Shown piece by piece: positions 15 to 52,160 of a stretch of 64,000 nucleotides of DNA. The notes beneath the pieces were generated by a model. The model saw nothing but the letters and a program-made list of their open reading frames with translations. It had not been told where the DNA came from and ran no database searches. Both the position numbers and the translations under genes were made by a program. Position 1 is the first letter of the stretch; each line of letters starts with the position of its first letter. This DNA comes from Solwaraspora sp. WMMD791 (GTDB lineage: Bacteria; Actinomycetota; Actinomycetes; Mycobacteriales; Micromonosporaceae). The DNA lies in assembly GCF_029581195.1 (NCBI RefSeq), contig NZ_CP120737.1, forward strand, positions 6,487,001 to 6,551,000, read 5' to 3'.

Positions 15-80
15 CCGACGATCTTGCAGTTATCGAGAGTATTTGCCCGAATTGTCCCTCGATATGTGCAAGATCGTCGG
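15..80. repeat. Dispersed palindromic element, copy 1
   Basis: An inverted repeat with 23-nt arms (15-37 and 58-80) pairs at 21 of 23 positions around a 20-nt loop (38-57). The arms share the core CGATCTTGCA/TGCAAGATCG and an inner TATCGAG/CTCGATA. The loop ends in TTGTCC, as it does in the copies at 30372-30455 and 52077-52160. Unlike those copies, this one lacks the outer nine base pairs (CCCATGATC). It lies 20 bases past the 3' end of the IclR gene. Its position fits a bidirectional terminator or a REP-like dispersed element; the function is inferred. Confidence 0.8.
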
Positions 81-100
81 CGGTTTCGGGAAACGGGTCG

Positions 101-787
101 TCAGAGGCCGGAGAGTCGCTGCCCGGCGCGGACGACGGCCATGGCGTGCCGTTCACCCGGTCGGCGGCCGAGCCGCTCGATCGGCCCGGAGACGCTCACC
201 GAGGCGATCACCCGGCCGGTCCGGTCCCGGATCGGGGCGGAGACGCTGGCCACGCCGGCCTCGCGCTCGGCGACGCTCTGCGCCCAGCCACGTCGGCGCA
301 CCTCGGCCAGCGTACGGCCGGTGAACTTGCAGCGGGGCAGCAGCGGCATGACTGCCTCGGGTGGCTCCCAGGCGAGCAGGATCTGGGCGGCCGACCCGGC
401 CGTCATCGGCAGCACCGAGCCGACCGGCACGGTGTCCCGCAGCCCGCTGGCCCGTTCGGCCGCAGCCACGCAGATCCGCTCGTCGGCGCGGCGCAGGTAG
501 AGCTGGGCGCTCTCGCCGGTGGCGTCGCGCAGCGCGGCCAGCAACGGCTCGGCGGCGGTCAGCAGCACGTCGGGTGCGGCATTGGCCAGCTCACCCAGTC
601 GCGGGCCGGGCCGCCAGCGCCCCTGGGTGTCCCGAACCAGCATCCGGTGGATCTCCAACGCCTGGGCCAGCCGGTGCGCGGTGGCCCGGGGCAGCTTGGT
701 CCGCTCGACGAGTTCGGCCAGGCTGGCGCCGTCCACGCAGGCCGCGAGGATGACCACCGCCTTGTCGAGAACGCCGACACCGCTCAT
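101..787 (-). CDS. IclR-family transcriptional regulator, NdgR-like
   Basis: A 228-residue IclR-type regulator. An N-terminal winged HTH occupies roughly residues 1-60 (LAELVERTKLPRATAHRLAQ is the recognition region), and the C-terminal ligand-binding domain covers about 75-225. It is divergent from leuC, with only 49 bases between the two starts. In streptomycetes the equivalent regulator NdgR sits in the same place and controls leuCD and other amino-acid genes, so control of leuCD is likely here. I chose the ATG at 787, which has GGGA a suitable distance upstream. The in-frame ATG at 811 has a purine-rich stretch directly against it, too close to serve as a ribosome site. Confidence 0.88.
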   Translation of the reverse strand: MSGVGVLDKAVVILAACVDGASLAELVERTKLPRATAHRLAQALEIHRMLVRDTQGRWRPGPRLGELANAAPDVLLTAAEPLLAALRDATGESAQLYLRRADERICVAAAERASGLRDTVPVGSVLPMTAGSAAQILLAWEPPEAVMPLLPRCKFTGRTLAEVRRRGWAQSVAEREAGVASVSAPIRDRTGRVIASVSVSGPIERLGRRPGERHAMAVVRAGQRLSGL

Positions 788-824
788 ACTGTGTCCCACA
801 AGCCGAAACATACCTCCCAGAATT

Positions 825-830
825 TAGGAT
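825..830 (+). promoter_or_regulatory. Candidate -10 or ribosome site of leuC
   Basis: TAGGAT lies six bases before the leuC ATG at 837. It can be read as a TAnnnT -10 box giving a leaderless leuC transcript, or its AGGA as a weak ribosome site. The whole IclR-leuC gap is 49 bases, so any IclR-family operator must overlap both promoters. I could not pick out a convincing palindromic operator by eye. Confidence 0.35.
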
Positions 831-836
831 GTCCAG

Positions 837-49431: not shown

Positions 49432-49455
49432 CGTTCCCTGATGGAGGGCTTAGAC

Positions 49456-49794
49456 ATGAAGCTGGTGACCGCGGTCATCAAGCCGTACCAACTCGACGCG
49501 GTCAAGGAGGCTCTGCACGCCCTCGGCGTGGCCGGGCTGACCGTGAGCGAGGTCCAGGGGTACGGACGGCAGAAGGGCCACACCGAGGTGTACCGGGGTG
49601 CCGAGTACACCGTCGAGTTCCTGCCGAAGATCCGGGTGGAGGTGCTGACCGACGAAATCGACGTCGAGAAGGTCGTCGACGCGGTCGTCACGGCAGCCCG
49701 TACCGGGAAGATCGGTGACGGCAAGGTCTGGGTGACGGCCGTCGAGGACGTCATCCGGGTCCGTACCGGCGAGCGCGGTCTCGACGCGCTCTGA
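49456..49794 (+). CDS. glnK: Nitrogen regulatory protein PII (GlnK type)
   Basis: PII signalling protein, 112 residues. [19 protein letters not shown] is the first signature, and the T-loop [19 protein letters not shown] contains the modified Tyr51. [20 protein letters not shown] is the C-loop. In actinobacteria this tyrosine is adenylylated by GlnD. The ATG at 49456 has GGAGGG eight bases before it. It sits between amt and glnD in one operon. Confidence 0.97.
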
Positions 49795-49813
49795 TCCGGC
49801 GACTGGAGGACAG

Positions 49814-52069
49814 ATGACCGACGGAGTCGGGGTCCGGCACCGCGCAGCGGCCGGCCCCGGCCCGTCGCTGTCCAACGGCATCGGCGCCGCCGCCCGCGTG
49901 GAGCGGGCGGCGGCGCTCGACGTCTGGCTGACCGCGCTGATGCCGGCCGGGCTGACCGGCATCGCCCTGGTGGCGGTCGGCGGGCTCGGCCGACTGCAGT
50001 GCTCCCCGTACAGCGATCTCGACCTGGTGCTGCTGCACCGGGGGGTCGCCGGGATGGACGAACTGGCGGCCCGGATCTGGTATCCGATCTGGGACGCCCG
50101 GCTCGGGCTGGACCACTCGGTGCGTACCCTGCCGGAGGCGTTGTCGGTCGCCCACGACGACGTCAAGGTCGCGCTCGGCCTGCTCGACGCCCGGCACGTC
50201 GCCGGCGACCGGGAGCTCACCGCCGATCTGCAGGCCGCCGCGACCGACCAGTGGCGGCGCACCGCCGTACGGCAGCTGCCGGCGCTGCGCGAGGTCACCG
50301 AGTCCCGTTGGCGCACCCACGGCGAGCTGGCCTTCCTTCTCGAAGGCGACCTGAAGGAGGCCGCCGGCGGGCTGCGCGACGTCGGCATCCTGCGCGGCAT
50401 CGCTCTGGCTGGCATAGCCGACAGCATGCGTCCGGCCGCCCGCGCCGCCCACCTGCGGCTGCTGGACACCCGCGACGCGCTGCACGTCGCCGTCGGTCGC
50501 CGGGTGGACCGGCTGGTCGCCCAGGAACGCGCCACCGTCGCCGGCCTGCTCGACCTGGACGACCCGGACACCCTGCTGCGCCGGGTCGCCTCCGACGCCC
50601 GCACCATCACCCACGCCCTCGACGACGCCTGGCGCAGCGCCGAGCGGCTGCGCTCGGGCCGCCGTCGAGGCGGCGGACCGCCGGTGCGCCGCCCGGTGGC
50701 CCGTGACGTCGTCGAGCACGACGGTGAACTGGTCCTCGCCCGTACCGTGATCGGCGCCCGCCCCGATCCCAGCCTGTCGCTGCGGGTCGCGGCGGCCGCC
50801 GCCACCAGCCGGCTGCCGATCGCCCGGGCCACCTGCGAATGGCTCGCCGCGTACTGCCCGCCGCTGCCGGCGCCGTGGCCGGACTCGGCCCGCGCCGCGC
50901 TGATCACCCTGCTCGGTGCCGGTCCCGGCCTGGTGCCCACCTGGGAAACCTGCGACCGGTACGGGCTGGTCGACGGCTGGCTGCCGGAGTGGCCCCGGTT
51001 GCGCAGCCTGCCGCAGCACAATCCGGTGCACCGGTTCACCCTGGACCGGCACCTGGTGCAGGCGGCGCAGGAGGCCACCGCGTACACCCGGGAGGTGGAC
51101 CGCCCGGACCTGCTGCTGCTCGGCGCGTTCCTGCACGATGTCGGCAAGGGTCTGCCCGGCGACCACAGCACCGTCGGCGCGCCGATCGCCGCCGGCATCG
51201 CCGCCCGGGTCGGGCTGCCGCCGGCCGACGTCCACCTGATCGACAAGCTGGTCCGGTTGCACCTGCTGCTGCCCGAGGTGGCCACCCGGCGCGACCTCAG
51301 CGACCCGGTGACCATCGCGCAGGTCGCCGAGGCGGTCGGCGACACCACCACGCTGAGCCTGCTGCACGGGCTGGCCCGGGCCGACGCACAGGCCACCGGT
51401 CCGGCCGCCTGGTCGGACTGGAAGGGCCGGCTGATCGCCGAACTGGTCCGCCGGGTGCACACCGCACTCGACACCGGGGTCCTGCCGCAGCCGCCGCAGC
51501 CGGACCCGGCGCTGGTCGCCGGTCCGTTGCCGGCCGTGCACATCGACGGCGACGACCGGGTCGCGGTGGCCGCCGCCGACCGGCACGGACTGCTCGCCGC
51601 AGTCGCCGGCTGCCTGTCGCTGCACCGGCTCGACGTGCTGACCGCCGACGCCTCCACCGTCGACGGCCGGGCGTTGGTCGAGTTCCGGGTGCAGCCCCGC
51701 TACGGCAGTCCGCCGGAGCGCATCGCGCTCGCCGCCGACCTACGCCGGGCGGTCACCGGCGACGTGTCGGTCACCCAGCGGCTGCGTGGGCGGGCGATGG
51801 CGGCCCGTCGGTCCGGCGCCGACCCCCGGGTGGTCTGGCACCGGGAGGCGGCCACCGACGCGGTGGTGCTGGAGTTGCGGGCGGCCGACTCGGCCGGCCT
51901 GCTGTACCGGGTGACCAGCGCGTTGGACGAGGCCGGTGCCCAGGTGCGGGCCGCGCGGATCTCCACCCTCGGCGGCGACGTGGTGGACACCTTCTATCTC
52001 GTGGGTGGCTGGCCGGACGACGCCGAACGGGACCGGCTGGCGGCCGCAGTGCTGGCCGCCGCCCGCTGA
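49814..52069 (+). CDS. glnD: PII uridylyl/adenylyltransferase GlnD
   Basis: GlnD, 751 residues, modifies and demodifies PII according to nitrogen status. The nucleotidyltransferase site is GGLGRLQCSPYSDLDLVLLH (near residue 56), followed by a GlnD helical domain, an HD domain (LLGAFLHDVGKGLPGDHS, near 440) and two C-terminal ACT domains (VAAADRHGLLAAVAGCLSL and LRAADSAGLLYRVTSALDE). The actinobacterial enzyme adenylylates rather than uridylylates GlnK. It starts 19 bases after glnK and is followed directly by the palindromic element. Confidence 0.95.
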   Translation: MTDGVGVRHRAAAGPGPSLSNGIGAAARVERAAALDVWLTALMPAGLTGIALVAVGGLGRLQCSPYSDLDLVLLHRGVAGMDELAARIWYPIWDARLGLDHSVRTLPEALSVAHDDVKVALGLLDARHVAGDRELTADLQAAATDQWRRTAVRQLPALREVTESRWRTHGELAFLLEGDLKEAAGGLRDVGILRGIALAGIADSMRPAARAAHLRLLDTRDALHVAVGRRVDRLVAQERATVAGLLDLDDPDTLLRRVASDARTITHALDDAWRSAERLRSGRRRGGGPPVRRPVARDVVEHDGELVLARTVIGARPDPSLSLRVAAAAATSRLPIARATCEWLAAYCPPLPAPWPDSARAALITLLGAGPGLVPTWETCDRYGLVDGWLPEWPRLRSLPQHNPVHRFTLDRHLVQAAQEATAYTREVDRPDLLLLGAFLHDVGKGLPGDHSTVGAPIAAGIAARVGLPPADVHLIDKLVRLHLLLPEVATRRDLSDPVTIAQVAEAVGDTTTLSLLHGLARADAQATGPAAWSDWKGRLIAELVRRVHTALDTGVLPQPPQPDPALVAGPLPAVHIDGDDRVAVAAADRHGLLAAVAGCLSLHRLDVLTADASTVDGRALVEFRVQPRYGSPPERIALAADLRRAVTGDVSVTQRLRGRAMAARRSGADPRVVWHREAATDAVVLELRAADSAGLLYRVTSALDEAGAQVRAARISTLGGDVVDTFYLVGGWPDDAERDRLAAAVLAAAR

Positions 52070-52076
52070 TTCTCTC

Positions 52077-52160
52077 CCCATGATCGCGGCGATCTTGCAC
52101 TCATCGAGAACTTCTGTCCGGTTTGTCCGTCGACAAGCGCAAGATCGTCGTGATCATGGG
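52077..52160. repeat. Dispersed palindromic element, copy 3
   Basis: Arms of 32 nt (52077-52108 and 52129-52160) with a 20-nt loop (52109-52128). Six positions differ from perfect pairing; two are G-T and three A-C, so the stem is still strong on either strand. Outer arms CCCATGATCGCGGCGATC and the loop end GTTTGTCC match copy 2. It begins seven bases after the glnD stop, ahead of ffh. Confidence 0.88.

Follow-up and report, generated by a model that had tools for sequence, protein, structure and literature searches.

Three hairpins at gene ends

The window, i.e. the whole stretch of 64,000 nucleotides analysed here, covers positions 6487001-6551000 of the single 6.93-Mb contig of Solwaraspora sp. 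WMMD791 (genome G000) and contains three copies of a long palindromic element on its plus strand, each at the 3' end of a gene. Copy 1 (15..80) is found 3' of a gene for an IclR-type regulator (101..811, minus strand), copy 2 (30372..30455) 3' of recG (28118..30358, plus strand) and copy 3 (52076..52161) 3' of glnD (49814..52069, plus strand). These gene names, given in a preliminary description of the same DNA, hold in Pfam (IclR) and in NCBIfam (RecG and GlnD). The distances from the stop codons, quoted there as 7-20 bases, need a slight correction: the stop-codon end of iclR is 20 bp from copy 1, the recG stop codon lies 13 bp ahead of copy 2 and that of glnD 6 bp ahead of copy 3. The constant orientation that was emphasised is lost when the copies are viewed relative to the genes, i.e. 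copies 2 and 3 are sense and copy 1 is antisense to the minus-strand iclR.

The three copies are 66-86 bp long, with 20-22 nt separating the arms. Copy 1 has arms of 23 nt with 20 nt between them (15-37 and 58-80, complementarity 91%), the arms of copy 2 (30372-30403 and 30424-30455) pair at 31 of 32 positions (97%), just as had been counted before, and those of copy 3 (52076-52107 and 52130-52161) are 84% complementary. The hairpins are present where they had been described: copies 1, 2 and 3 are entries 4, 1 and 3 in the window's list of 23 inverted repeats, and as RNA they fold with z-scores of -5.6, -11.8 and -8.9, respectively, with none of 200 shuffles folding as well for any of the copies. 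The core pattern has 7 matches in the window against 0.45 expected, and 6 of the 7 fall on the arms of the three copies, two per copy. Rfam gave no match above the gathering score in the window.

A chromosome-wide family of palindromes

The preliminary description had, in advance, made its reading of a dispersed family depend on further copies being found in the genome, and at least 54 were found. A pattern consisting of one arm and the start of the loop has 57 matches (up to 3 mismatches) in the chromosome, while the reversed control pattern has none. With a covariance model based on 30 copies we obtained 108 strand matches, corresponding to 54 places in the 6.93-Mb chromosome; since the scoring covered the best 150 of 3549 candidates, 54 is a minimum, and among these candidates copy 2 of the window has the top score. 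The consensus of the 54 copies is CGACGATCTTGC-AGTTATCGAGA-AGATTTGTCCGATTTGTCCA-TCGATAAGTGCAAGATCGTCG, and in 33 of them GATC[A/T]TG follows within 10 nt. In many copies the stem is lengthened by a C-rich left and a G-rich right flank.

A second point on which that reading had been made to depend, loops that are not random, holds only in part: the loop is conserved in length and not in sequence. The inner arm motifs are 40 nt apart in 52 of the 54 copies and 41 nt apart in the remaining 2, whereas the mean column identity is 93% in the arms and 77% in the loop, and the TTGTCC motif is found in 36 copies. The sequence drift is also seen between orthologous copies, where 15-24% of the loop positions differ as compared to 6.7% of the stem positions. 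We do not claim covariation: in the 30-copy alignment there are 40 double-changed cells vs 28.7 after shuffling, whereas the pairs with such changes (12 vs 10.4) and the pair types (32 vs 32.1) are not increased, and 33 orthologous pairs contain 7 compensated double, 9 uncompensated double and 65 one-sided stem changes. The idea that terminator hairpins already in place were split in the middle by insertion of the element was tried and is not supported, since the left and right flanks of one copy pair no better than flanks taken from separate copies (p = 0.07 for 54 copies, 0.38 for the 40 without the 5' motif and 0.25 for the 20 with neither motif).

The position of the copies was studied with genes called by a simple codon-position script rather than by a standard gene finder, and for 47 copies both neighbours were near enough to be used. 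There are 28 copies between convergent genes, 12 sense and 4 antisense copies between tandem genes and 3 between divergent genes, so that convergent or tandem settings account for 44 of 47. The convergent setting is more common than in the other intergenic gaps of the window (28/47 vs 6/35, p = 1e-4). A gene points at the 5' side of the element in 40 of the 47 cases, with a median gap of 25.5 bp from the stop codon, and at the 3' side only in 4. The earlier statement that the element always follows a stop codon thus describes a strong tendency and not a rule. One of the 54 copies is located within a script-called open frame (L078).

A nuclease gene between two copies

Outside the window two copies of the element, one sense and one antisense, bracket a gene at genome positions 3607797-3608660 (L079:3186-4049), which is the sole coding unit that we saw between close inverted copies. 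Its product has 288 residues and consists of an N-terminal half similar to AbiEi antitoxins and a C-terminal nuclease domain, which is modelled like Vsr and like I-Bth0305I, a homing endonuclease of the Vsr-fold EDxHD family. The predicted domain has the catalytic fold of the EDxHD/Vsr type, Foldseek matches it to 3hrl and 3r3p (probability 0.99, E 0.2), and PF04480 (DUF559 / MTES_1575 Vsr-type restriction endonuclease) is above the cut-off in the C-terminal part of all 3 proteins scanned. The PADLOC models of AbiEi match at most residues 45-234 of the reading frame, which has 330 residues. The acidic residues of the nuclease type are conserved, and the gene is under purifying selection. Neither of the two scanned neighbours in G000 matches an AbiEii family (one is similar to saccharopine dehydrogenase and one has no Pfam hit). 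Plasmid and phage records contain just partial matches with less than 40% identity (5 plasmid records and 1 phage record), and the scan of genome contigs made alongside gave 3 loci.

Hairpins are also found around related nucleases. Among 52 nuclease loci, which are the best matches of their genomes and not a random sample, 45 have a hairpin (score of at least 14) within 350 bp; it is present on both sides in 28, and in 24 of these 28 the two sides have a similar sequence (at most 2 of 16 positions different). The hairpin density is 2.06 per kb near the nuclease loci vs 0.098 per kb beyond 600 bp, a 21-fold difference. The number of AbiEi-Vsr nucleases varies between 0 and 13 per genome among 25 genomes of the order. 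In a census of the 7-species genus, which took in the 38 nuclease genes found at E<=0.001, 33 have a hairpin with a score of at least 13 nearby and 32 have one directly after the gene, where it begins between -21 and +32 nt relative to the stop codon; an upstream hairpin (score of at least 14) is present in 15 loci. The nuclease tree has a main clade of 33 genes, of which 32 have a hairpin, and an outlying clade of 5 genes with a single hairpin. By our reading of tree and hairpins the orthologue groups mostly share a hairpin of their own (seven groups do so), which alone is no proof of matching because the flanks may be common by descent.

A second pair was found in G000 (L251, 6004389-6008243), where the gene 6005889-6006743 has TCGAGGTGACGCTGACGCAC hairpins on both sides, one 16 nt behind it and one 585 nt before it. 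The TCGAGGTGACGCTGACGCAC arm occurs at 10 places of G000 (up to 2 mismatches), 7 of them with both arms, and the control pattern at none. Two further AbiEi-Vsr nuclease genes of the same genome (L252 and L161) each have a hairpin of another kind, 9 nt after the stop codon. Other repeated hairpins are seen in relatives, namely in G007 (L255, L257, L260 and L270; L254, L262 and L263), for instance with arms like TATACCTGAGAGTCAT and CGTCTTCGGCGAAGT, and in G027 (L272 and L282), for instance with an arm like GCGCATACGGAAA. Another nuclease paralogue of G007 (4554549-4555163) adjoins a hairpin at L265:14443-14488.

Distribution and age of the copies

The element and the close nuclease tend to occur in the same genomes. 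Among 150 genomes of the family, with the best 30 element and 16 nuclease candidates scored per genome (cut-offs E<=1e-6 for the element, E<=1e-36 for the close nuclease), each was found in 38 and both in 29 (Fisher p = 1.7e-15); 11 of the 12 element genera, out of 44 genera, also have the nuclease (p = 5e-7), although these p-values overstate independence because the genomes are related. Within the genus, four members (G001, G002, G004 and G005) have only 0-3 strand matches of the element each, and the clade of G001, G004 and G005 has almost no element and no close nuclease. In G004 (L125) of this clade there are 3 element strand matches, 2 of them at E<=1e-6, which are either a remnant or a new arrival. 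In another genus G014 (L126) has a nuclease gene that lacks its middle part, yet 67 element strand matches are present in the genome; a stage of decay is possible.

Copies 2 and 3 of the window are present in G006 and absent from G001-G005, these being the 6 other genus members compared. A tree based on 2,697 columns of one locus and rooted with G014 has the form (G002,(G003,((G000,G006),(G001,G004,G005)))), with supports of 98-100. Given this distribution and the tree, copies 2 and 3 were probably gained more recently, most simply on the G000/G006 branch, and the clade of G001, G004 and G005 has, most simply, lost nearly all of its elements. The G003 recG site has 12 bp that resemble the 3' end of the element and that, by eye, also match the host sequence downstream of the G006 element; if they are a remnant, the recG copy is older than this.

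The composite unit, i.e. palindrome-gene-palindrome, is not confined to one place. In G003 it has a SpoIIM gene on one side and a homologue of the DUF58 gene of G014 on the other, and at this site the aligned flanks are only 27-46 bp apart in all 6 other members of the genus. G014 has a unit at the corresponding place, with a gene that lacks about residues 150-203. The unit of G000 and G006 is at a different place, where G003 has a solo palindrome, so composite and solo forms of one site occur in different species. G002 was considered as a clean empty site for the G000 composite and had to be rejected, as it has other coding sequence there. The synonymous divergence between G000 and G003 is 0.78 for the nuclease as opposed to 0.28 for recG and 0.32 for glnD, therefore the two nucleases are probably older paralogues or separate acquisitions. 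The SpoIIM gene of G003 ends on a TGA (L124:1903-1905) within the outer arm of the palindrome (TCATGATCG), and thus its stop codon is supplied by the element.

Possible mechanism and alternative explanations

The two copies that bracket the predicted nuclease suggest a hitherto undescribed self-maintaining repeat system in actinobacteria. We think it fairly probable that the element forms an intragenomic population of palindromic repeats whose maintenance and spread depend on an endonuclease of its own, in a manner resembling REPINs (hairpin-forming doublets of repetitive extragenic palindromic sequences, REPs) and their transposases, the RAYTs (REP-associated tyrosine transposases), and relying on an unrelated, homing-type enzyme. 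The association of nuclease and palindrome is shown by the data above; from gene order, fold and co-occurrence we infer that the nuclease binds, cuts and copies the palindrome, and the events might follow this order. The AbiEi-like N-terminal half would bind the inverted repeat and the Vsr/homing-type C-terminal domain would cut the palindrome or a nearby target. The break might then be repaired from another copy, whereby a palindrome would be copied in (in trans); alternatively, the whole palindrome-gene-palindrome unit might be copied into the break (in cis). Insertions would be tolerated directly after stop codons, in many cases where two genes converge. Once the nuclease is lost, the palindromes would no longer be renewed and would fade. 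The distribution described above fits a population that persists while the nuclease is present and fades where it is gone, with some gains.

A number of observations weigh against this explanation. Most of the tested copies do not seem to have moved recently: 14 of 20 high-scoring copies of G003 and 19 of 20 of G006 are at sites shared with G000 copies, the shared-site copies keep their orientation (14/14 and 18/19, respectively), and copies at the same site are more alike than copies at different sites (0.887 vs 0.841 in G003, 0.909 vs 0.830 in G006, values that none of 20,000 permutations reached). Most of the population is therefore old and inherited vertically, and we rejected recent movement as the main story. 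There are weak hints of concerted evolution within genomes, which we did not use since the G003 and G006 copies are the top scorers and hence biased. No clean insertion boundary or target-site duplication can be read, as the flanks at the empty sites are too diverged. The preference for one orientation is not significant: tandem genes enclose 12 sense vs 4 antisense copies (p = 0.08), and in 11 of the 28 convergent settings the closer gene is the one on the 5' side. At the cut-offs used, 9 of 38 element genomes lack a close nuclease, and 9 of 38 nuclease genomes lack the element. The E-value that Foldseek itself gives for the matches of the modelled domain is weak. The hairpins also depart in places from the nuclease tree, in which L144 groups with L161/L309 but has a hairpin resembling that of L308. 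Finally, the cognate hairpins of distant nucleases in G007 and G027 were not seen elsewhere in the 360 and 400 kb sampled (5-8% of the genomes), therefore wide dispersal is not general.

The most serious competitor, which we nevertheless consider rather unlikely, is that the copies are host elements under selection, e.g. bidirectional 3' ends or RNA-stabilising hairpins, and that the nuclease merely uses such a hairpin as its own 3' end. The excess of convergent settings, the short distance from the 5' stop codon, the slower change of stems than of loops, the stems extended by C-rich and G-rich flanks and the shared sites in G003 and G006 are all as this explanation would have it. However, a run of 4 Ts within 30 nt after the core is found on the sense side of 1 of the 54 copies and on the other side of none, so the hairpin followed by a T run that marks intrinsic terminators is not typical of the family, which bears on terminators with a T run and not on those without. 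Neither a near-identical sequence behind unrelated genes nor the scarcity of the element in G001, G002, G004 and G005 is expected of terminators. Selection on host 3' ends thus accounts for the position and for the constraint on the stem, and leaves the similar hairpins on both sides of nuclease genes and the co-occurrence unexplained. The preliminary description was right to see REP-like copies dispersed through the genome and something beyond an ordinary terminator. A selfish origin and a useful side effect together may explain the persistence at gene ends.

The element might instead be the operator or cut site of a regulatory or defence protein whose AbiEi-like half represses its own promoter through the inverted repeat and whose nuclease hits invaders, the dispersed copies being decoys or binding sites that some other transposase has moved. 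The promoters of AbiEi proteins contain inverted repeats to which these proteins bind (PMC7319586), and both the PADLOC matches and the upstream hairpins of the genus census agree with such a role. We find this improbable, as the hairpin of 32 of the 38 genus genes lies behind the gene and not in the promoter, and as no AbiEii was seen among the two G000 neighbours. A miniature inverted-repeat transposable element of an ordinary DDE insertion sequence, with the nuclease as a passenger, would have long inverted repeats and no coding capacity, as the element of about 84 bp has. It is very improbable in our view: the nuclease is the only coding unit seen between close inverted copies (no search aimed at DDE transposases or insertion sequences was made), and a target-site duplication was not recognised, the boundaries being blurred by diverged flanks. 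The least credible alternative is a classical REP element mobilised by a RAYT, i.e. a Y1 transposase, as had been suggested earlier as one possibility; dispersed palindromes located at the ends of genes do look alike. The Y1 transposase family PF01797 is without a match in G000 and in the equally element-rich G003 and has 1 match in G006, whereas each of the four element-poor genus members has 4-12, and the arms of 23-32 bp, about 20 nt apart, differ from REPs that measure 20-40 bp in all (PMC3733652). Thus, of these explanations, a repeat population maintained by its own homing-type nuclease is the one that we prefer.

Comparison with known systems

We speculate that AbiEi-Vsr nucleases are a general class of selfish pairs, each maintaining its own palindrome, and that the family of the window is one pair that has expanded chromosome-wide, which would make it a second, independently evolved counterpart of REPIN-RAYT via palindrome-directed homing; in our judgement the chances for and against this wider proposal are evenly balanced. 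Palindromes or nuclease-palindrome pairs of this kind appear in no titles or abstract openings that we found (subscription journals were mostly outside the search), and the same titles and abstract openings do not link DUF559/MTES_1575 domains to palindromic repeats.

It is useful to set the predicted nuclease beside the enzymes it resembles. With the DUF559 / MTES_1575 Vsr-type restriction endonucleases it shares the PF04480 match of its C-terminal part (for MTES_1575 see PMC3710099). It differs from the known Vsr-fold homing endonucleases in as much as there is no intron or intein and the association is with a multicopy palindrome, cleavage being predicted. In comparison to the AbiE type IV toxin-antitoxin systems, the AbiEi-like half is fused to a nuclease, and AbiEii is absent from the two scanned neighbours. 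A testable role can thus be proposed for a large group of unassigned DUF559/AbiEi-like genes, which also offer natural nuclease-palindrome pairs for specificity studies.

REPINs are thought to depend on RAYTs, and we know of only one kind of enzyme, the Y1 RAYT, to which dispersed bacterial palindromes have been tied. The element and such systems both consist of many extragenic palindromes, mostly at the 3' ends of genes and between convergent or tandem genes, and both have an enzyme gene flanked by copies (for REPs, PMC3733652); both populations are also long-lived, that of REPINs persisting for millions of years (PMC8049555). The differences concern the enzyme, which is AbiEi-like/Vsr-like with no Y1 domain found, the actinobacterial host and the palindromes, which are longer and have about 20 nt between the arms. 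The tag of REPs, an unpaired GTAG or CGTC at one end, has no equivalent here, as CGTC lies inside the paired arm. Gene order, co-occurrence and presence/absence tie a different enzyme to a palindrome here, many related genes have a similar order, and the lineages with and without the nuclease raise the question of why repeat populations persist.

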